Shown here: positions 43,354 through 55,881 of the stretch, one piece after another | Numbering within the stretch: position 1 is the first letter of the stretch | Layout: each line of letters starts with the position of its first letter | Assembly (NCBI RefSeq): GCF_000203815.1 | Contig: NW_004457737.1 | Span: 620,001-684,000, forward strand | Length of the DNA: 64,000 nt | Direction of reading: 5' to 3' | Source: Cavenderia fasciculata | Lineage: Eukaryota; Evosea; Eumycetozoa; Acytosteliales; Cavenderiaceae | Notes under the pieces: model-generated | Told to the model about the DNA's origin: nothing | Seen by the model: only the letters and a program-made list of their open reading frames with translations | The model's database searches: none | Made by a program: the position numbers and the translations under genes

Positions 43354-44070
43354 ATGATGTCATCATCAATATATACATCACTATCACTATCACCATCGCC
43401 ATCACCGCCACCACTAATTAGATATCATACTAAAACGATTAGAGGAAATGTTGAACAATATACAAAACAGTACCGTTGTTTCTCTGAAAGATTCCCACCC
43501 GATCTAGGTCGACTCTTGAGTGAACAAGAGTATGTCACCATCATAAGATCTTACAATCAGACTCTAGGCTTACGGATGGACCCAAATCACTTTGTCAGAG
43601 TAGGGCTAGCCATTCTGATTGTGTCTGCCGTCTTGTTCGCCCTCTTTCCATCTCTCAATTCTGACGTTGTCATTGCTTATGGAGGAGCCGTTTTAGTATT
43701 TTTTATGGTTTATATGATGGCTTGCATGTTTGTTCATGAAGCCAAAGTATGTACAATCCCGATTGATCAAACTGTACTGTTTTCTAATAGTTATTATTTA
43801 TATATTTATTGTATATATTTATTTTATATATAGAGGAAAAGAGGGATCCGTGAGTTGAATGAAGAATACACGATGATGTTTGCACATCGATGTGTATCAT
43901 TTCAACTAGAAATTGATCGTTTTGGGGGTCTATACCTACTTGCAATTCGGTATCCTTTAGAATCATCATCATCGTCATACTCTGACGTGAATGAAAGTAA
44001 TAATAATAATAATAATTACAATAATCAAGATATCATTATTGAAATTTCAAACCAAAGATTAATGGAGTAA
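43354..44070 (+). CDS. G1: two-membrane-segment protein, possibly Erf4/GOLGA7-like, 2 exons
   Basis: Exons 43354..43746 and 43834..44070 give 209 residues. The N-terminus is Ser/Pro-rich. Then RYHTKTIRGNVEQYTKQYRC, FSERFPPDLGRLLSEQEYVT, IIRSYNQTL, two hydrophobic segments (VGLAILIVSAVLFALF; AVLVFFMVYMMACMFV), and after the intron RKRGIRELNEEYTMMF. The FPPDL...EQEY..II..NQ pattern resembles the Erf4/GOLGA7 domain of palmitoyltransferase cofactors, but the membrane pair is unusual and the match is by eye only. First of three tandem relatives (G2 at 45455, G3 at 49191). Confidence 0.7.
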
Positions 44071-44237: not shown

Positions 44238-44491
44238 TCACCATTTGCACCAATATGGACGAGAGAATGCAGATGTTTGATTGCTATTCATCATTGATTG
44301 ATGTGATCCATTATTACTATTATCATATGAATTCATTGATTGTGATTGTTGTTGACCTATCGATGATGAGAATTGATTGATCGATGAAATATTGGATAAT
44401 GTTTCTAGAAAATTAATAAATAAATTAATATTAGAATAAATGTTTAAATTAATGACAATGATTATTATAGGTTATACATACTGAAAAGCAT
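44238..44491 (-). CDS. X1: small protein of X family, 2 exons
   Basis: Exon 1 (44491..44482) is only ten coding bases, ATGCTTTTCA; the intron starts GTATGTATAAC. Exon 2 (44404..44238) ends in TGA. 58 residues: MLFKTLSNISSINQFSSSIG, a Gln/Ser/Asn-rich middle, then TSAFSRPYWCKW. No signal peptide or membrane segment. Ends 168 bases past the stop of G1 (convergent). Not recognised outside this cluster. Confidence 0.75.
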
Positions 44492-45454
44492 TTTAATAAT
44501 TAAAGTATTTGGTGTGTTTAAAAGATAACTTGAATATTTAGTTGATTGTTGTTGTTGTTGTTGATTTGATGATATTAAATAATAATGAATTGTAATTGTA
44601 TTTATAGTCGTCTATCATTTGTGATTATCATCAGTCACTGAGGGGGTTGACAACACCTGTTTAACCAACATTGATAGAATGTTGTTGTCATCAGTAGAGT
44701 GACAATCTGGAAAATGATAGTGTCATGTGTTTAAACATTGAATTCCATGCCCGATATTCATTTGATTGGAATGCGTTATGTGTGTGTTGTGAGTTGTGTG
44801 TGATGATGTATTAATCTACACAATATTAGTTGTGTGTTGTGTTGATGTGCTTGACAAAAACTTAAATTCGATAGTATCTATTATCAACTCATTCTATCAC
44901 TACTATTTTTTAACAAACTATAGACACTAGTATTCCAAAAGACAGGTCATCTGTTATTATCATTAGCATTCCATCATCATATCATTCCAAAGGAGTATTT
45001 CCATTTCCAAATGACACCATTCGAATGATGATGATGACAGCACTTAAACGTTGGTGCGTAATGTTATAGATTAAGATTATTATAAACTTTTAAAATACTC
45101 TATCCACTATCTATTCACATCATCGTCATCTGATGCAAACATTAAGAGAGGAGAGTCCCAGAAGATGAAAGTAAAAATCATCAATCCAAATTTTATTGAT
45201 ATGAAATATTCGGTTTTGGTGTTTCGAGTTGGAGTAGTATCGTTGATGGTATATTAATTTGGATGATGAATCATCAAACTTTGATACCCAAGAAATCAAA
45301 TTGAGCCAACCTTTTGTTGGCTACATTCATGGGCGATGGTGGACCAAACAACACTAAAAAAACGCATCGTGCGGGTGTTGTCAAGTATTAAGATTTAACG
45401 ACATATATAATATAAACAAAATTATTTAGATTAATGTCATAAATTTATGTATCA
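44492..45454. other. Module 1 spacer and remnant of lost Y gene
   Basis: Closely matches the X2-Y1 spacer up to about 44870, and again at 45050-45190, but the Y-side TATA box and the Y coding region are absent. After about 45190 the sequence changes to G2 upstream DNA. Confidence 0.65.
44597..44606 (-). promoter_or_regulatory. TATA box of X1
   Basis: TATAAATACA on the minus strand, about 105 bases before the X1 ATG, followed by a CAA-rich leader. Same word at the same place in X2, X3 and X4. Confidence 0.65.
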
Positions 45455-46080
45455 CCATCACCGCCACCACTAATTAGATATCAAACTAAAACGATTAGAG
45501 GAAATGTTGAACAATATACAAAACAGTATCGTTGTTTCTCTGAGAAATTCCCACCCTACCTATGTAATGCCTTGAGTGAACAAGAGTATGCCACAATCAT
45601 AAACTCTTATAATCAAACTCTCACTCTAAGGTTGGAGTTTGGTCGCTTTATCAGCATGCTAGCCATTATGGTGGTATCTGCCATCGTGCTCTTCATCTCA
45701 CTGGACAATTCTTACATTGCCTATGCCAGTGCTGGGGTCTTTATCTTTAGTTCATTTTATATGCTTGCTTACATTCTCATTCTAAATGCCAAAGTATGTA
45801 CACTCGATCCATCAAATTGTTTCTAATCAACCCTGGTTCTTGGCAAAGTATTAATGAATTATCGCAATATATATATCTTTGATATACATGTATTTATTAT
45901 AGAGGAAAAGGGGGATCGATCAGTTGAATGACGAATACACTATCATGTTTGCACATAGAGGTGTCTCATTTAAACTGGACCATGACCATCTTACAGGTCA
46001 ATTCAGTATCCTTTGGCATCTCCACAATACTCTGTCATGAATAATAATAATAATAATAATTACAATCAACAACACGATTG
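45455..46080 (+). pseudogene. G2: broken copy of the G family
   Basis: Matches G1 from the Pro-rich start (about 45455), the RYQTKTIRGNVEQYTKQYRC stretch, FSEKFPPYLCNALSEQEYAT, two hydrophobic segments and the intron (GTATGTAC...TATAG). No in-frame ATG remains before the conserved part; a stop lies just upstream. Exon 2 begins like G1 (RKRGIDQLNDEYTIMFAHRG) but is shortened after about 45990. A likely pseudogene. Confidence 0.65.
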
Positions 46081-46906
46081 AAAGATGGCAATCCCTGAAA
46101 AATTAAATAAATTAAATAATTATTTATTTATTATAACACTTCCCCAAAAGATACGATATGATGGTGAAGTTCACTCCACCCATTTTTTATTAGAGAGATA
46201 CCTTTGTATTAAATGAGATTACGTACTATTATCAACAATAACGTATAGCAACACACATCTTATCAACAACAACAAAGACATCAATCAATGATATCATTAA
46301 ACACCTACAAATAGAAATCATGCTTGGAATATCATCAACAACATATACACCATCAAACCCCCCAACAACCTACAATAATAATAGCCGATCATACCTTCCC
46401 TTCAACAACAACAACCAAAACAAGTAATAATATAAAGACGAGATAGAGAGAGAGGATAGGATGTATCTGAGATTATGATGCCAACAAACAAAAGAACAAC
46501 TTGACCATCACATTCTCTCTCGTTGGTAGTTCAACTGTCTAATCACCACCACCACCAACACACAAACATATATATATACCAAAGCCAAACAACATAAGCC
46601 AACAAGCAACCGAAATAATATAGTGATTTATATCGATCGGTGGTTTGTGTCTGTCAATGCATAGCTATGGTGTGGTGCTAACTGCCATTTTTTGGACTCA
46701 AAGAAATTGGGTTTGGTTGATTGATTGATTGTTGGCATCGATCGGTCAATGAATGCGATGGGAATCACTCAAAATGATGTTTAGTCAACCAACTGTCGCC
46801 AAAAGTGACATCATTTAAAAGGAGTGATAAAGTGTATAGTTTGGCACTCATAAAAGTAAAAGAGAGAGAGATAATAATAACAATAATAGATAAATAATAC
46901 ATCACA
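46081..46906. other. Intergenic, promoter region of adhesin-like copy C
   Basis: 826 bases. From about 46440 it resembles the copy A upstream region (GAGAGAGGATAGGATGTAT and later blocks). No ORF supported. Confidence 0.55.
46816..46843 (+). promoter_or_regulatory. Conserved proximal promoter block of adhesin-like copy C
   Basis: AAAAGGAGTGATAAAGTGTA then TAGTTTGG, about 90 bases before the ATG at 46907. Counterpart of the block at 11243-11270. Confidence 0.45.
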
Positions 46907-49138
46907 ATGTCACATTTAATAGTAATAGTAACAGCTGTTTTAATGCTTTTATTGTTGAATATTGCACCTATTCATTGTGAAAATGACCCTATCCAGGGTG
47001 AAGGATACGTTTGGTCAACCTCAGAAGTAGGGAATGGTCACAGATACAAAGGATTACTTTTGACCACTCCTACAATCAAAGAGGCGATGAGTAAATGTTT
47101 AGGCTATGGAAACAATACATTTAAATCATATCTTGTCACAAGTTGAATCAAAACAAGAATGGGATTTTATTAGAACCAAGTGGTGGCCACCTACGATATG
47201 GGTCTCTGGTAAAGACATCAGAGGTATTGGGAATTACACCTATTCAAGTGGACCAGGAACCAATCAACCACTATTTAATATGTATACTGGTCAATGTTGG
47301 GGTATGTCTATTAAAAGTATCAACTCTTTATAAAATTAATTGTATTAATCATTTTTGTTTTTATTAAAGGATATTGTACATTCAATGCAGGCCAGCCATC
47401 CTTAACTCTTGCTGCTGAAGATCAATATATTTACATCAGAGGACCGACTTGGAATTTTAATAATGATAATGGTTCTAATGATCAAGTTCATACAGCAATA
47501 TGTGAATTACAGCCCATTTCAGAAGAATATATTCCATCAATCGGTACAAATGGAGGATCAATAACAATCAACAATCTATCACAATTCAACATACAAACAA
47601 TCAACATTACGTTTTCCAATCCAACCAAACAACTTGAAAAATCATGTCAAATAACTTCAAAACAAGGAACATCAATCACTTGTACTGTTCCACCTCTATC
47701 TGGACTTCATGATGTCACTGTTCAAGATGCTAGTGGAGTCAGCTCAGCACACTATGCATGGCAACCATATCCACCATTTATCAAAGCTGTCTATCCATCA
47801 TTCACTGCTAATGGATTGGTTACACTGATTGGTGATAACTTTGGTGATAACACCAATAATACGGTAGCTGTCAGTGTCTCAACATCTATAACAGATGCAC
47901 CGGCGATTGACAATATTACTAGTATTATACCTGGACAAGCATCACAGGTTACAATCAATGGGAATCATTTTGGAAGAGACAGTTCATATGTTTTGATTTC
48001 GATTCAAGGAAGTCAATGTAAATCACCAATGTTTATTGAAAACAACTATCAACAAATTACTTGTTCATTGGGTAGTGTTGAACCTTATTCAACCGATCTA
48101 AATTATACTGTTAAAATTGGAGTTGGTGGAATGCTTACAACCAAAGTTGTATCTCTTGCGAAAGAGTGTCTTAACAATTGCTCGTCACATGGCATTTGCA
48201 ATACCACGTTTGGGTCATGCAAATGTAACAGTGGTCATGAACCCCTATTGGATTGTTCAGAGTTGGTTAATCGTAGTCAATTGCTCAACACAACGATTTG
48301 GGATAACGGCATGTCACTTTTATCAACAGACCAAACGATTAGTGGTGTGATTGTCAATTTCACAACTGGTATACAATTCATTCGTGAAATCAATCATGAC
48401 CAATCAATAATTAAAACAATATCAATGGATAGTGCCGTGTGGACGCAAGAAGAGGAGAAGACATCTGCTGGTGAATTAGTATTTAATGCAAGAATGTTCA
48501 ATCAACGCACACAATTACAAGTCATGGTTGGCCAATACCAAGACACCAACACCACTTCATTTCTTGGTGAGGATATTCAAGTATCACCAAATTCAGTCAA
48601 ATATCGAATCAAAATCATTAATTGGGTATGGTCATCACCAATCAACACACTGCAGGTGATATTCCATACACAATCAGATTCAGTAGAATTTGACAAGTGT
48701 GGTAAGCTAAAAGTCAGAAGTGACATATCACGTGGTGATCAAATTATATGGACCAGAGTTCAAGTTGGAAGGACACTATTAAACTGTAAAATAGCAAGTA
48801 GAATGGTTATAGACAACTCGACAATCATTCCATCCAAAGTAACACTTCTCACCAACGATGATCCAGTCTCTCAACAAATCTGGAAAAGTCGAAAATTCAA
48901 CCTTTTAACCACATTCCACAAACCTAGATTCTCTCAATCGGTTGAACTCGATCACGTCTTCAACGCACTCATTCTTGGCGACGACTCCAACTTGCCATAT
49001 GAGTGTACTGAAGAGACATCTGATCAATGGACATTTATCATAGTCGCTGTTGTCTTATCGGCTGCACTACTCTCTAAGTGTTTTGATCAATATATTTGCA
49101 GATCGAAGATCTCTTCAAACAACATATTGTTGTATTAA
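46907..49138 (+). pseudogene. Adhesin-like copy C (lectin-like + IPT/TIG + EGF-like + ComC-like domain), damaged
   Basis: Signal peptide (VTAVLMLLLLNIAPIHC), lectin-like part, then one long open stretch from about 47350 to 49138. IPT/TIG: PPFIKAVYPSFTANGLVTLI and VTINGNHFGRDSSYVLISI. EGF-like: CSSHGICNTTFGSCKCNSG. The ComC-like domain follows. Damage relative to A and B: one extra base near 47140 shifts the frame inside the lectin-like part; about 600 bases between VSTS and TDAPAID are missing (the join is in frame); and the membrane segment stops after VVLSAALLS, then foreign sequence adds about 20 residues. Probably non-functional as a receptor; expression cannot be judged. Confidence 0.68.
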
Positions 49139-49190
49139 AGATTTTCAACGACATATAATATATAATAACACAAACCTGTTGTTTAGATCG

Positions 49191-49876
49191 ATGACATCAA
49201 TATATATATCAATATCACCAACACCACCACCACTACTTACATATCACACTAAAATAATTATAGGAGACCCTAATAAATTTACAAAAGAGCACCGTTGTTT
49301 CTCTGAGAAGTTCCCACCCGATCTATGTAATGTCTTTAGTACACAAGAGTATGCCACCATCATAAGCTCTTACAATCATGCGACAAAGGTGGATTTAAGT
49401 CGCATTACTGGCATACTAGCCGTTATAATGGTGGCTTCCTTTGCGATCATGCTCTTTCAAAACGATACAGTCACATACGCTGGTGCTGGAGTCGCTATCG
49501 TTGGTTCATTTTATATGATTGCTTACCTTCTCTTTATCAATTCAAAAGTATGTACCAATCAATCATAGAACTGCTGTTTATACACACTATGTATATTTAC
49601 GTCAACATATATTTATAGAGGAAAAGAAGCATCCATGAGTTGAATGAAGAATACAATATGATGTTTGCGCAAAGAGGTGTATCATTTGGACTAGAATATA
49701 TAGCTTCTCTATACAGGCTTTCAATTCGGTATCCTTTAGGACCACCACAATCACCACCAACATACTCTGACATGAATCATAATCAAAATAATTATATTAT
49801 TAATAATAATTACAACAATCAAGATACCATCATTGAAAATCCTTGGAATGGAGTAATGTTAAATAATATTAGTTAA
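49191..49876 (+). CDS. G3: two-membrane-segment protein, paralogue of G1, 2 exons
   Basis: Exons 49191..49547 and 49619..49876 give 204 residues. I use the ATG at 49191, which matches the G1 start region; the reading frame upstream is the tail of copy C. Sequence order as in G1: Pro-rich start (SPTPPPLLTYHTKI), FSEKFPPDLCNVFSTQEYAT, two hydrophobic segments (GILAVIMVASFAIMLF; GVAIVGSFYMIAYLLFI), then after the intron RKRSIHELNEEYNMMFAQRG. The Asn-rich tail is low complexity. Looks intact. Confidence 0.72.
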
Positions 49877-50174
49877 TAATTAAAATTCAATCGGAGGGTC
49901 CCAAGCACAATTAATATTGTATTATTATTAATCATCTAAATATCATCTAATCAGGTGATGCATCTTCATCATCATCAGCACCCAAGAATTAATTAATTAA
50001 AAGATTAGATATACTATATTACAATATAATTATTATTATTATTATTATTATTGTACATTTTATTTTAAATTAAATAAATAAATAAAGTTTTGTTCATTCG
50101 TCGGTCAGTCGGTCGGATTGTGTTTGTATAGAATTAAAATACAATTATAAATTAAATTAGATCATTGATCAAAT

Positions 50175-50423
50175 TTACCATTTGCACCAATATGGACGAG
50201 AGAATGCTGATGTTTGATTGATATTCATCATTGATTGATGTGAACTATTATTACTATTATTGATCATTGTATTTGAATTAAATGATTGACCAATTGATGA
50301 TGAGAATTGGTTGATCGATGAAATATTGGATAATGTTTCTAGAAAATTAAATGAAATAATATTAATATAAATATTCAATCGAAATGACATCATTGGGCTA
50401 TAGTTATACATACTGAAAAGCAT
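50175..50423 (-). CDS. X2: small protein of X family, 2 exons
   Basis: Exon 1 50423..50414, exon 2 50338..50175, TAA stop. 57 residues: MLFKTLSNISSINQFSSSIG, an Asn/Ser-rich middle, TSAFSRPYWCKW at the end. Upstream about 400 bases are nearly identical to those of X1. Divergent partner Y1 starts 844 bases away. Confidence 0.78.
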   Translation of the reverse strand: MLFSMYNYSPMMSFRLNIYINIISFNFLETLSNISSINQFSSSIGQSFNSNTMINNSNNSSHQSMMNINQTSAFSRPYWCKW

Positions 50424-50992
50424 TTTAATAATTAAAGTATTTGGTGTGTTTAAAAGATAACTTGAATATTTAGTTGATTGTTGTTGTTGTTGTTGATTTG
50501 ATGATATTAAATAATAATGAATTACAATTGTATTTATAGTCGTCTATCATTTGTGATTATCATCAGTCACTGAGGGGGTTGACAACACCTGTTTAACCAA
50601 CATTGATAGAATGTTGTTGTCATCAGTAGAGTGACAATCTGGAAAATGATAGTGTCATGTGTTTAAACATTGAATTCCATGCCCGATATTAATTTGATTG
50701 GAATGCGTTATGTGTGTGTGTGTTGTGAGTTGTGTGTGATGATGTATTAATCTACACAATATTAGTTGTGTGTTGTGTTGATGTGCTTGACAAAAACTTA
50801 AATTCGATAGTATCCAGAATCAAATCATTCTATCACTACTATTTTTTGCTGTATCTATCCATCCATATACATCATCATCATTCCAAGTCAATATGAAAAA
50901 GGAGTATTCCTATTCCAATTAAGATGACGAAATCAATCAAGCCAGTCGACACTTGATATTAGCATTCCCATTTCCAAATGACAACATTCGAT

Positions 50993-51023
<31 letters not shown>

Positions 51024-51266
51024 AGCGCTTAACGTGTGTGCGTAATGTTATAGATTAAGATTATTATAAGCTTTTAAAATATTCTATCTTTCTATCATCA
51101 ACACCACGCAAGTGAGTAGATACAACAATGTAAGAGTATAAATAGAGAGTGTCCAAGAAGATGAAAGTTATAATCATCAATCCAACCAACCATCCAATTA
51201 ATTAAATAACGATACCCAAATTAATTAAATTCCAAAGCAAACTCTTATCTCTCCATTCTAGAAAAA
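50424..51266. promoter_or_regulatory. Bidirectional spacer of module 2 (X2/Y1)
   Basis: 843 bases with TATAAATACA toward X2 (50529-50538) and TATAAATAGA toward Y1 (51137-51146). Contains a (GAT)n tract at about 50995-51021. Shared with module 1 over most of its length. Confidence 0.7.
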
Positions 51267-51505
51267 ATGATATTTAGTAAGTATTAATAATAATAAGGTG
51301 ATACAACTTTTATCAAATATACTAACCAATCTATTCTATTCCCATAGCAACTCTTTCAAAGATCTCTATCTCTATGAAGCAATCTGTATCATCATCATCA
51401 AAGCAATTGATCAGCTCTAATGACCAACTTGAACAACTCCAACAACAATCAACCAATTCATTATGTAGATTCAGTCGTCCATCATGGGCATTTGGATACT
51501 GTTAG
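51267..51505 (+). CDS. Y1: small protein of Y family, 2 exons
   Basis: Exon 1 51267..51276 (ATGATATTTA), intron GTAAGTATT...CATAG, exon 2 51348..51505. 55 residues: MIFTTLSKISISMKQS, Ser-rich, Gln-rich, then CRFSRPSWAFGYC. No signal peptide or membrane segment. The early intron, the M-[LI]-F-x-TLS start and the RPxW near the end are shared with X. Confidence 0.78.
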
Positions 51506-52729
51506 CTGTTTATTGATTAGATATATACACTACGACTTGTTGATATATATATATATACAAACATAGACTGACCGACCTATTTATTACTATTTTCATTCAT
51601 CGATATTTCGAATGATTAAAACAATAAAAAAAAACAAAGAAGTAATGATTGTACATCGATTTTTTTTGTTATTATTTTATAATGATCATCAAATGCATTG
51701 ATATAATAGATAGATTTAGTTGAATGTTTACTCCCAGATACTTATAAGAGTCGCAAGTTCAGAGAAAAGGAAGAGGAAGAGGAAGAGCACCAATTTTAAT
51801 AACTTTCGAGACCTTTAGTTTTAGATCTTCTAGTGTTGATTGACATGTAATGGTATGACATAAAAGCATTGACACAGTTTACAAGTTCTTGTAATGATTC
51901 TTGCTTAGCAACATAGTTTAGATTACTACATTTAGTGCTAGCAGGTAGATTGTTGATGTGGACCTGGCGACATACCATTTTTAAGACTAAAATGGCAGCA
52001 ACGTGTTCTGCCGATTAGATCTCATTTGTCAAGAGTTGGGCATTGGGATTAACGACTTGTGTCATGTTGTTCAACCATGTTGGAGATGGATGAGCTTTCT
52101 CTTTTGATGGAAGCTTGATCATTGGTTAATGAAAGAAGGTCAACTTTGCTGGAGAAGGGTGGATGTAAAGGAAAGTGTTTAGCCAATTTGAACAAAACAG
52201 ATTCCCAACTTGCTAGAGTTGGCGACAATTAGTATGGCGAAGTGCACACAGATGGTTAAGTAAAGGTACTCTGTTTTTAACGGACCAATTTGCATACCAT
52301 GATAATATACTATCTCATTTTGCAATCGATATCTATTTTTAGGGAGCTACACATCAGTATTCTGAAAAAAACCAAGGTTTAATTATTGTTGGAAGCCGGT
52401 CTTTATTGGAGATGTTTGTTGAATTGGGATTCATTGGAATAATATTGATTGTAGTTCAAATATTCTCAATTCAACAAACAAATCCACCGGTCCATCTTTA
52501 CACAACTAAAGGTAGGTAGCAATTATAATTTATGTATGTATAAAATAAAATAAAATATGGATTGGATTGATAGAATAAATAATTTTACATTTTATTGTTT
52601 TAATTATTAGTGATTTGGTATGGTCGATTCCAAGATTGCATTTAAATTCGTCTCGGTGAATTTTAAATTGCTTTAATAAATAGAATAGAATAGGATTGAT
52701 CGATTGGTACGATTATTGATCAATCAAAT
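51506..52729. other. Intergenic stretch of unclear origin
   Basis: 1.2 kb between Y1 and X3, less AT-rich at 51960-52330. It carries repeat copy R3 and a 35-codon open stretch at 52411-52512 that starts MFVELGFIGIILIVVQIFSI and is followed by a GTAGGT donor-like site, but no convincing continuation. No gene supported. Confidence 0.45.
52565..52655 (-). repeat. Dispersed repeat R, copy R3
   Basis: On the minus strand: TGCAATCTTGGAATCGACCA then TACCAAATCAC and AAAATGTAAAATTATTTATTC. Matches R1 and R2 25 kb away. Confidence 0.6.
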
Positions 52730-52994
52730 TTACCACTTGCACCAATATGGACGAGAGAATGCTGATGTTTGATTGATATTCATCATTGATTGATGTGATC
52801 CATTATTATTATTATTATTATCATATGAATTCATTGATTGTGATTGTTGTTGACCAATCGATGATGAGAATTGGTTGATCGATGACATATTGGATAATGT
52901 TTCTAGAAAATTAATAAATAAATAATATTAATATCAATGTTTAATAGGTTAATGACAACGTTGATAGTTATAGGTTATACATACTGAAAAGCAT
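52730..52994 (-). CDS. X3: small protein of X family, 2 exons
   Basis: Exon 1 52994..52985, exon 2 52902..52730, TAA stop. 60 residues: MLFKTLSNMSSINQFSSSIG, Gln/Ser/Asn-rich middle, NQTSAFSRPYWCKW. Upstream block just before the TATA box differs from X1/X2 and matches X4. Divergent partner Y2 is 848 bases away. Confidence 0.78.
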
Positions 52995-53841
52995 TTTAAT
53001 AATTAAAGTATTTGGTGTGTTTAAAAGATAACTTGAATATTTAGTTGATTGTTGTTGTTGTTGTTGTTGTTGTTGATTTGATGATATTAAATAATAATGA
53101 ATTGCAATTGTATTTATAGTCATCCAAAAGGTGTGTGGAATAAATGAATGGTGTTGTTTATAATAAACCAACACTGATAAAATGTTGTTGTCATCAGTAG
53201 AGTGACAATCTAGAAAATGATAGTGTCATGTATTTATAAACATGGAATTATTCGGATATTCCAAAATTCCAATTTAAATTGATTGGAAATGTGGTGCGTG
53301 TGGAGTGATGATGTATTAATCTACACAATATATTATTGTGTGTTGGTGTTGTGGTTGAAAAAAAATATCTCTAATCAAAATGATTCTATCACTATAGAAC
53401 ACGTGAATGATAAGGATGATCGTTTTCACATGGAATGTACGTCAAACGAACGGTATTAGCATTCCAGCATCATCATCGCTGCGCTGTTATATATATATTC
53501 CAATAGGAAGAATTCCAAGATGAATGACGACAAATCAATCAATTTGAAAAGAGACGACATTTGTTGACACTTGATATTAGCATTGTTGCCATATATCGAA
53601 ATGACAACATGCGAGTTGTGATTGTTCGAACACATGGTGGTAATTGGCAAATGATGACATGACCACAACTCGCGTGCGATACATCCTGATTCGTCGTCAA
53701 GTTTACATCTGTAAAGATTATCAACACCGTCATGATCCAGTATAAATAGCTCTTTTGAATATCTAGTTTATCATCAAGACAATCCAAATAAACTATATTA
53801 ATTAATTAATTAATAATTAAACCAACCTCTATATTCTAAAA
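52995..53841. promoter_or_regulatory. Bidirectional spacer of module 3 (X3/Y2)
   Basis: 847 bases with TATAAATACA toward X3 (53109-53118) and TATAAATAGC toward Y2 (53741-53750). Part near X matches module 4 at high identity. Confidence 0.7.
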
Positions 53842-54101
53842 ATGATATTTAGTAAGTATTAATAATAATAACAGGTCAGATTATCTCTATTTGAATACTA
53901 ACCATATTCTTTCTATCTATAGCAACTCTTTCAAAGATCTCCATCTCTATATCTATGAAGCAATCTTCATCATCCTATTCTGTATCATCATCATCATCAT
54001 TGAACCAATTGACCGATCATCATACCGTCCAACTCCAACAACAATCTACCAATTCAATGTGTAGATTTAACCGTCCATCATGGGCATTTGGATACTGTTA
54101 A
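53842..54101 (+). CDS. Y2: small protein of Y family, 2 exons
   Basis: Exon 1 53842..53851, exon 2 53933..54101. 62 residues: MIFTTLSKISISISMKQSSS, a Ser run, Asn/Gln-rich middle (LTDHHTVQLQQQST), then MCRFNRPSWAFGYC. Nearly identical to Y3 in the second half. Confidence 0.78.
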
Positions 54102-54545
54102 TAGCACTACTACTTGTTGATATACACTGACATAAACATAGACCGACCAACCTATTTAAATATCATTCATCGATAAAGAATGATTAAACCAAACTACATA
54201 GTTTACAATAAACTTTTTCTTGTACATTTTATCTAACTATAAGTGTTTTGGTTCTTCTACTTCTTTCATTTTAATTATTAATTGTAACACTGATCTCGAA
54301 CTTCTTCTTGTGCTACGAACCAATGAAAAGAGAAAGCCAATGGGACTCAAACTATGAGGGTCACCCCACCAAAAAGTTGCCTCATTAATATTTTGTATGG
54401 TAGGAAATAAATAATTTAGTTTATTTTAGTTTATTTTAGTTGTTAGATATTCATTCTATAGTCGACCATGAATGAATATCTCTCTTTATTATAATCGATA
54501 GGTAGAGTAAAGTTTAGAATATTATATTATATATTATTTGTTGAA
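54102..54545. other. Centre of the inverted repeat of modules 3 and 4
   Basis: 444 bases between the ends of Y2 (+) and Y3 (-). AT-rich, no gene seen. Confidence 0.6.
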
Positions 54546-54795
54546 TTAACAGTATCCAAATGCCCATGATGGACGATTAAATCTACACATTGAATTGGTT
54601 GATTGTTGTTGGAGTTGGACGGTATGATGATCGGTCAATTGGTTCGATGATGATGATGATGATACAGAATAGGATGATGAAGATTGCTTCATAGAGATCT
54701 TTGAAAGAGTAGCTATAGGAATAAAATAGATTGGTTAGTATATTTGATAAATAATGTCGATTCTTTTTAGTGTTATAATACTTACTAAATATCAT
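54546..54795 (-). CDS. Y3: small protein of Y family, 2 exons
   Basis: Exon 1 54795..54786, exon 2 54712..54546, TAA stop. 58 residues: MIFTTLSKISMKQSSSSYSV, Ser run, NQLTDHHTVQLQQQST, then MCRFNRPSWAFGYC. Divergent partner X4 is 839 bases away. Confidence 0.78.
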
Positions 54796-55633
54796 TTTTA
54801 GAATAGTTAATTTAATTAAATTGGTTGCTTGGGTTGATTTGATTGTGATGATGATTATAAACTTATTGTCTTGGACACTCTCTATTTATACTCTTGCATG
54901 TTGTCATCACACGACTATGTTTAAAGTAGGATCAATCAATCAATCAATCAATCTTGCAAGTTGATCAACATGTATATCGCATTATCCATTAAATACAAAT
55001 TGTATGGAGTGTTGTCATCATTTATGTCATTTGGAAATGGGGAATGCTAATATTACTTGATTGATTTCGTCATCCATCTTGGGTTTGAACACTCACACAA
55101 TATTATTATTGATGATGGAATGCTAATATCATACATCGGTTCGTATTGTTTTATTGGACAATTGTAAGAGCTTAAAACATATTTTTGCCTTTAATATTAA
55201 CCTTTGGTATTTAGAAAAAGTAGTGATAGAATCATTTTGATCATAGATACTATCGAATTTAAGTTTTTGTCAAGCACATCAACACAACCCACAACTAATA
55301 TTGTGTAGATTAATACATCATCACACACAACTCACAACACACACATAACGCATTCCAATCAATTTGAATTGGAATTATGGAATATCCGAATAATTCCATG
55401 TTTAAACATGACACTATCATTTTCCAGATTGTCACTCTACTGATGACAACAACATTCTATCAGTGTTGGTTTATTATAAACAACACCATTCATTTATTCC
55501 ACACACCTTTTGGACGACTATAAATACAATTGCAATTCATTATTATTTAATATCATCAAATCAACAACAACAACAACAATCAACTAAATATTCAAGTTAT
55601 CTTTTAAACACACCAAATACTTTAATTATTAAA
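54796..55633. promoter_or_regulatory. Bidirectional spacer of module 4 (Y3/X4)
   Basis: 838 bases with TATAAATAGA toward Y3 (54881-54890) and TATAAATACA toward X4 (55519-55528). Inverted relative to module 3. Confidence 0.7.
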
Positions 55634-55881
55634 ATGCTTTTCAGTATGTATAACCTATAATTATAATAATCATTGTCATTAATTTAAACATTTATGCTAA
55701 TATTTTTTCTTTTATTAATTTAGAAACATTATCCAATATGTCATCGATCAACCAATTCTCATCATCGATTGGTCAATCAAATACAATGATCAACAACAAT
55801 AATAATAATAGTTCACATCAATCAATGATGAATATCAATCAAACATCAGCATTCTCACGTCCATATTGGTGCAAATGGTAA
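55634..55881 (+). CDS. X4: small protein of X family, 2 exons
   Basis: Exon 1 55634..55643, exon 2 55724..55881. 55 residues: MLFKTLSNMSSINQFSSSIG, short Asn/Ser middle, NQTSAFSRPYWCKW. The plus-strand copy shows best the ten-base first exon and CAA-rich leader. Confidence 0.78.

Follow-up and report, generated by a model that had tools for sequence, protein, structure and literature searches.

The question raised by this locus is why two small genes should occur repeatedly side by side, transcribed away from each other, in the genome of Cavenderia fasciculata. The window, that is, the whole stretch of 64,000 nt analysed (contig NW_004457737.1, positions 620,001 to 684,000), carries between positions 44,238 and 55,881 genes of two classes, X and Y, which the initial annotation had described as four copies of a divergent module, one of them without its Y gene. 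Gene models agreed with this description: seven two-exon genes (four X and three Y), intact in coding sequence and splice sites and encoding products of 55–62 amino acids, were found at the positions claimed (Table 1). The first coding exon of these genes is 10 nt long (ATGCTTTTCA in X and ATGATATTTA in Y) and is followed by a phase-1 intron of 71–82 nt with GT..AG ends, exon 2 encoding the remainder. In the three complete pairs, the start-to-start distances were 844, 848, and 839 nt, reproducing the near-constant spacing noted before. TATA words had been said to lie at fixed places on both sides; this was true of X, in which they were near-constant (-115, -115, -124, and -115 for X1 to X4), but not of Y, in which they were scattered (-130, -101, and -95 for Y1 to Y3).

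The pairing was found to extend far beyond the window. A search of the genome (30,995,898 bases in 21 contigs; 31 Mb), in which every family gene was first detected through exon-2 similarity and then modelled, yielded at least 26 genes: 7 X, 6 Y, 6 of a class P, 5 of a class Q, and two singles, with 19 of them outside the window. This number is a lower bound; two weak extra matches, C5:313411 (E 1.9) and C1:874649 (E 0.03), gave no gene model when these loci were scanned. Eleven divergent pairs, accounting for 22 of the 26 genes, were located on three contigs (the window contig C1, and C13 and C16, which carry the extra copies), and each was either X/Y or P/Q; none of the 11 was a same-class pair. 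When class labels were shuffled, 0 of 20000 trials gave 11 of 11 heterotypic divergent neighbours (maximum 9), and 7 of 20000 strand shuffles yielded 11 divergent neighbours; the copies are related, hence these counts are not probabilities. The unpaired genes were X1, P5, Z, and R. The partner of P5 has probably been lost. Z (locus L014, C13:152355-152102), which is Y-like in the tree, and R (locus L052, C13:227043-226795) are single members of the family for which no divergent partner can be recognised. Upstream of R (C13, about 229.4 kb), what looked like a promoter match proved to be the CAACAA-rich leader of another gene, of secreted type.

The eight pairs beyond the window spanned 906–1844 nt from start to start: 906 for Xb/Yb and 1040 for Xa/Ya (both on C13), 1289 for Xc/Yc, 1511–1598 for four P/Q pairs on C13, and 1844 for the P/Q pair on C16. 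Because of this range, constant spacing was rejected as a functional rule, and the near-constant distance in the window most simply reflects recent shared ancestry of the copies.

The initial annotation knew of no paired divergent arrangement like this among dictyostelid short-peptide families, but there is a precedent: the sigN genes of Dictyostelium discoideum are reported to occur as inverted pairs that have been duplicated, with GBF-like sites in the DNA separating the two genes (Vicente et al. 2008, PMC2257962). All 11 pairs showed this sigN-type organisation of adjacent inverted genes with a common intergenic region. The heterotypic, class-preserving partners are the new part, divergent pairing itself being already known from sigN; no description of heterotypic pairs was found in a literature search of titles and abstracts, the coverage of which leaves out most subscription journals.

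Comparison of the proteins indicated that X and Y are distantly similar paralogues. The X and Y profiles aligned with E 2.8e-8, and alignments of X with P (1.3e-11), X with Q (3.4e-7), P with Q (2.1e-7), Y with P (7.6e-6), and Y with Q (1.5e-5) were also obtained; in each case 0 of 100 column shuffles scored as high. X1 was 30–37% identical to the six Y proteins. In the tree, X, Y, and Q were each set off by a branch (support 86/98, 98/95, and 98/98, respectively), and P was not; with 12 of the 23 inner branches open, X/Y and P/Q may or may not descend from a common ancestral pair. Proteins encoded in the window start with M[LI]F.TLS.[IM]S and end with F-x-[RK]-P-x-W. Genome-wide, X, Y, Q, Z, R, and Pd start with M[LI][FY] and the other five P with MSLF, and the end motif F-x-[RK]-P-x-[WY] was present in all 26 modelled genes (W in 25), a count not independent of the search, since the model scans sought open frames and partly such an end. 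Ser, Asn, and Gln together make up 29–52% of these proteins, which have 0–4 cysteines and no Gly-rich tail, apart from a short Gly run in Pd. A very short first exon and one short phase-1 intron (63–104 nt) were common to 26 of 26 modelled genes, this shape being required by the gene-model scan; the 13 X and Y genes all have a first exon of 10 nt, and 5 of the 6 P genes have one of 13 nt. A profile search of the PDB with the family alignment (A1) gave 0 matches at E up to 1, and naming two X and two Y proteins by Pfam returned sub-threshold noise alone (Vir1p 0.34, Sec8_N 0.037).

Selection on the coding sequences, which had been proposed from the intactness of the genes, was evaluated by NG86 counts on nearest, non-overlapping gene pairs with a binomial test. 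The three window pairs (X1-X3, X2-X4, and Y2-Y3) showed 11 synonymous and 7 non-synonymous changes, giving a ratio of non-synonymous to synonymous change per site (pN/pS) of 0.17 (p 2e-4). The ratio was 0.36 over five X and Y pairs, 0.17 over four P and Q pairs, and 0.29 over all nine nearest pairs (p 5e-11), with the reservation that Ya-Yb is near saturation (dS 1.56) and that exon exchange keeps the nearest copies from being simple sisters. Wherever a ratio was defined in the pairwise X and Y comparisons, dN/dS ranged from 0.07 to 0.91 and was mostly 0.2–0.5, and overall it is not near 1. These values show purifying selection on the coding sequences.

Exchange between copies was suggested by discordant groupings of X1–X4 at sites with a 2:2 distribution. 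The 400 bp upstream supported X1+X2 against X3+X4 at 31 of 31 sites, exon 2 supported X1+X3 against X2+X4 at 8 of 10, and the intron X1+X4 against X2+X3 at 3 of 5. In the 150 bp downstream, the grouping of X1+X2 against X3+X4 returned, at 8 of 12 sites. Gene conversion or recombination acting on exon 2 would be expected to leave such a pattern.

The spacers between X and Y contain three conserved blocks. The 25-bp X-promoter element GACACTATCAWTTTCYAGATTGTCA was present in six exact copies genome-wide, one upstream of every X gene but Xc, with one more match at three mismatches and 0 for the reversed control. The second block, GATWCTATCGAATTTAAGTTTT, was exact at five places, upstream of X1, X2, X4, Xa, and Xb; two other matches had three mismatches, and the reversed control gave four matches. 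The third, GTCATTTGGAAATGGGAATGCTAA, was found twice at up to three mismatches, both times exact, in the X2/Y1 and Xb/Yb (C13) spacers. All three are thus exact in C1 and C13 cassettes; with up to three mismatches allowed, none matches more than two further places in the 31 Mb. When the five complete X/Y spacers of C1 and C13 (X2–X4, Xa, and Xb) were aligned, the long invariant stretches lay on the X side, were also common to X1, and had been kept despite a dS of 0.48–0.70 between C1 and C13 X genes. The blocks may be footprints or leftover homology, and conservation above that of the surroundings favours a function.

The 11 spacers had 2.2–6.0 separate GBF-like sites, (T/G)G(T/G)G(T/G)G(T/G), per kb and 722 background windows had 1.08, part of the enrichment being TG-repeat. 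Counts were above the shuffle mean in 11 of 11 spacers, and 0–10 of 200 dinucleotide shuffles per spacer reached the observed value. A 12-mer, CATCAAATCAAC, was found in the leaders of 6 of 7 X and 5 of 6 P genes and in none of those of Y, Q, Z, and R. Among the fetched stretches of C1, C13, and C16, 1 of its 12 copies fell outside X and P leaders, in an Asn/Gln-rich reading frame read by eye; it was also present in the 5′ region of one of seven hssA-like or weak-match loci scanned. Six of the eleven spacers were examined for a palindrome like that of sigN Group 2. The four X/Y spacers among them had none, save for 14-nt self-palindromes in X4/Y3; in the two P/Q spacers, inverted matches of 37 nt inside P2/Q2 and 120 nt inside Pd/Qd were observed.

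X1 is a cassette with one partner lost, because its spacer has been kept and both the Y TATA word TATAAATA and the Y gene are missing. The DNA upstream of X1 was 82% identical to the X2/Y1 spacer over 764 alignment columns, the alignment stopping within 81 nt of the expected Y1 start, and TATAAATA was absent from the aligned place. Comparison of the 2009 bases upstream of X1 with Y1–Y3, Ya, and Yb (with 130 nt of promoter) revealed 49 nt matching the Y1 promoter; the other three Y matches were 18–32 nt long, two of them in the wrong orientation and one past the stop codon. The loss of Y originally proposed for this copy is thus borne out.

Table 1. Features of the X/Y cassettes (positions are those of the window)
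Feature	Position	Strand	Length or product	Remarks
X1 gene	44491-44238	-	58 amino acids	exons 44482-44491 + 44238-44404; orphan, Y partner lost
X2 gene	50423-50175	-	57 amino acids	exon 2 = 50175-50338; partner Y1
X3 gene	52994-52730	-	60 amino acids	exon 2 = 52730-52902; partner Y2
X4 gene	55634-55881	+	55 amino acids	exon 2 = 55724-55881; partner Y3
Y1 gene	51267-51505	+	55 amino acids	partner X2
Y2 gene	53842-54101	+	62 amino acids	partner X3
Y3 gene	54795-54546	-	58 amino acids	partner X4; convergent with Y2
Spacer X2/Y1	50424..51266	.	843 nt	4.7 separate GBF-like sites per kb
Spacer X3/Y2	52995..53841	.	847 nt	common to both genes
Spacer Y3/X4	54796..55633	.	838 nt	common to both genes
Spacer remnant upstream of X1	44492..45189	.		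without Y TATA word; Y gene not found
X-promoter element GACACTATCAWTTTCYAGATTGTCA, X1 copy	44700..44724	-	25 bp	one of six exact copies in the genome
X-promoter element GACACTATCAWTTTCYAGATTGTCA, X2 copy	50632..50656	-	25 bp	
X-promoter element GACACTATCAWTTTCYAGATTGTCA, X3 copy	53203..53227	-	25 bp	
X-promoter element GACACTATCAWTTTCYAGATTGTCA, X4 copy	55410..55434	+	25 bp	
Second spacer block GATWCTATCGAATTTAAGTTTT, X1	44857..44878	-		
Second spacer block GATWCTATCGAATTTAAGTTTT, X2	50793..50814	-		
Second spacer block GATWCTATCGAATTTAAGTTTT, X4	55246..55267	+		
Third spacer block GTCATTTGGAAATGGGAATGCTAA	50959..50982	-		X2/Y1 spacer, nearer Y side

X and Y are most likely small proteins whose genes are expressed together under developmental control and have been multiplied as two-gene cassettes. 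The region holds four copies of a cassette, one half-lost, in which X and Y diverge from the ends of a 0.84-kb spacer, as part of a larger family with at least 11 pairs, each built from two different partner classes (X with Y, P with Q). The G-box-like sites and the likeness to sigN suggest that one spacer may switch both genes on jointly in multicellular development, probably in prestalk or stalk-type cells; sigN induction is reported at 10–12 h, with both promoters tested active in prestalk cells (PMC2257962). Both products would be required in roughly matched, high amounts, with copy number setting the dose, and might act jointly. The likeliest role of the proteins would be that of small structural, adhesion, or matrix proteins, as proposed for sigN, or of aggregation modulators like SRCP1.

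Several observations weigh against this interpretation. Pairing is not strictly required, as the four unpaired genes indicate, and the copies, all of them from a single genome, are not independent. Constraint was weakest between X2 and X3 (dN/dS 0.91), followed by X1 and X2 (0.61), and Xa and Xb (L015, C13:250001-259999) differ by two non-synonymous and no synonymous changes (0 in 29.7 synonymous sites), yet their introns are 27% different, which could mean that the exons were homogenised recently or that synonymous sites are constrained. The enrichment of GBF-like sites is modest, since 52 background windows without an open reading frame of 80 amino acids had 1.75 per kb. No inverted likeness between the X side and the Y side was detected in the four of six X/Y spacers that were compared with themselves, so the X and Y promoters are not mirror copies. 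In D. discoideum, deletion of 13 sigN genes was reported to cause no developmental phenotype (PMC2257962), nor did knockout of six family genes singly (PMC8554618). Redundancy was suggested by the authors for the missing phenotypes (PMC2257962, PMC8554618), and mounds were disturbed only by antibodies against Group 2 peptides, one antibody causing mound disaggregation (PMC2257962).

The main rival is passive hitchhiking, in which an old inverted duplication was copied each time as a whole short unit with no functional link between its genes. This is possible, if doubtful. All pairing statistics are inflated by kinship of the copies; at X1, and probably at P5, the partner is gone and the remaining gene is intact; and the duplicated homology is largely limited to gene-spacer-gene, with the 200 bp downstream aligning at 47–69% in 11 comparisons and short local matches remaining. 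However, hitchhiking sits poorly with the absence of same-class pairs and with the heterotypic divergent order kept by X/Y and P/Q, which were amplified separately, as well as by the distant Xc/Yc and Pd/Qd. A further proposal, which we put forward tentatively and think rather unlikely, is that a single ancestral inverted duplication gave rise to two-component systems, X/Y and P/Q, in which the partners work together, e.g. in mixed assembly, with cassettes amplified for dose and exon 2 homogenised by gene conversion.

It is improbable that the active products are the transcripts instead of the proteins, a situation reported for hssA, for which frame-shifted over-expression still suppresses the statA defect (PMC6198379). 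The low complexity of the proteins and the unchanged synonymous sites of Xa/Xb beside divergent introns would fit such a role, but pN/pS well below 1 over the nearest pairs and the end motif kept in 26 of 26 modelled genes point to the proteins, with the above reservation that neither count is independent of the search. A mobile or selfish nature of the unit, which would then spread by itself, is very improbable: copies occur on three contigs and in both orientations, but copy number is modest, two of these contigs hold the copies in clusters, and the inverted and direct repeats listed included no long ones common to the unit ends, no search aimed at transposase genes or target-site duplications having been made.

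The DNA around the cassettes had been described as full of broken genes. One neighbour, at 46907-49138, does look broken, its first exon hitting a stop and the frame shifting near 47140; it was the sole one closely examined. This gene matched IPT/TIG (PF01833, 7.8e-10) and ComC supersandwich (PF22933, 1.4e-5) over the cut-off and EGF-like domains below threshold, and we take it to resemble dictyostelid adhesion/recognition proteins. Three copies of a small, apparently two-exon gene (43395-43911, 45451-45980, and 49214-49696; repeats D2, D5, and D7) form a local expansion beside the X/Y cassettes; the one copy tested gave a weak match to Golgin A7/ERF4 (PF10256, 22.6 bits against a cut-off of 29.3).

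Among known small proteins, the hssA/2C/7E family (PF05710, 'Coiled') invites comparison. In D. discoideum this family is described as having nearly 100 genes that carry a 13-bp first exon, and cup cells express some of them at very high levels (PMC6198379). With the curated cut-off of 21.4 bits as the threshold of membership, PF05710 was found at 10 places in this genome and 0 in 14 control genomes. Seven of the 26 proteins were scanned: X3, X4, Y1, and Y2 had no match at E up to 10, P2 and Q2 had none, and Pd was best with 13.9 bits (E 0.1). Five of the PF05710 loci were fetched; three gave no model, and the other two fitted the expected shape, their genes having a first exon of 13 nt and a phase-1 intron and their products starting with MTILAAISSLG and MTILASLSSMN. 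The P profile matched these two hssA-like proteins with E 7.8e-4 (0 of 100 shuffles), and X, Y, and Q alone gave E 0.17–0.25 (1, 1, and 3 of 100 shuffles as high). In both families a phase-1 intron interrupts the gene one base past the third or fourth codon, the proteins start alike (P with MSLFASLSKIG and one hssA-like gene with MTILASLSSMN), and 5 of 6 P genes have the 13-nt first exon as well (MSLF|A); unlike hssA/2C/7E, the scanned proteins are below the PF05710 cut-off and lack the Gly/Cys-rich tail. X/Y/P/Q is probably a sister family of hssA/sigN with the same architecture and not a member of it, and the initial view of a dictyostelid-type short-peptide family is supported. In a review, cup-expressed hssA-type peptides are called Group 4-specific (PMC8067170); given the 10 hssA-like places here (including L018 on C21 and L022 on C5), their relative age is worth sorting out.

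Two other D. discoideum cases bear a more general likeness. Multi-copy prestalk proteins of 57–59 amino acids, up in mef2A mutants and not significantly hssA-like (PMC3640940), agree with X/Y in size, copy number, and separation from hssA; being likened by description, they are a possible counterpart and a lead only. SRCP1, a serine-rich chaperone of 88 amino acids that suppresses polyglutamine aggregation (PMC8578527, PMC8554618), belongs to the same broad class of small serine-rich proteins.

The closest parallel is sigN, whose family in D. discoideum is reported to comprise 96 related genes, 89 with a 13-nt first coding exon (PMC2257962). As in sigN, the X/Y proteins are shorter than 120 amino acids and are encoded by a tiny first coding exon and a short intron (66–111 nt in sigN), the clusters arose from duplicated divergent pairs with G-rich GBF-like sites in the common spacer, and, as in sigN Group 1, the four X/Y spacers tested are non-palindromic (PMC2257962). 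The proteins differ: those of sigN are Ser/Cys/Gly-rich with a 13-nt first exon, and X/Y are Ser/Asn/Gln-rich with a 10-nt first exon and the F-x-[RK]-P-x-[WY] end. Group 1 members are given as 94–99% identical to sigN1 and those of Group 2 as about 95% identical mutually, whereas X and Y are about 30–37% identical (X1 against six Y) and belong to two fixed classes. Cassettes of divergent small-protein pairs have thus been duplicated in another subfamily and in a species other than D. discoideum, and where D. discoideum deletions gave no phenotype, clearly different partners kept together offer a testable handle.

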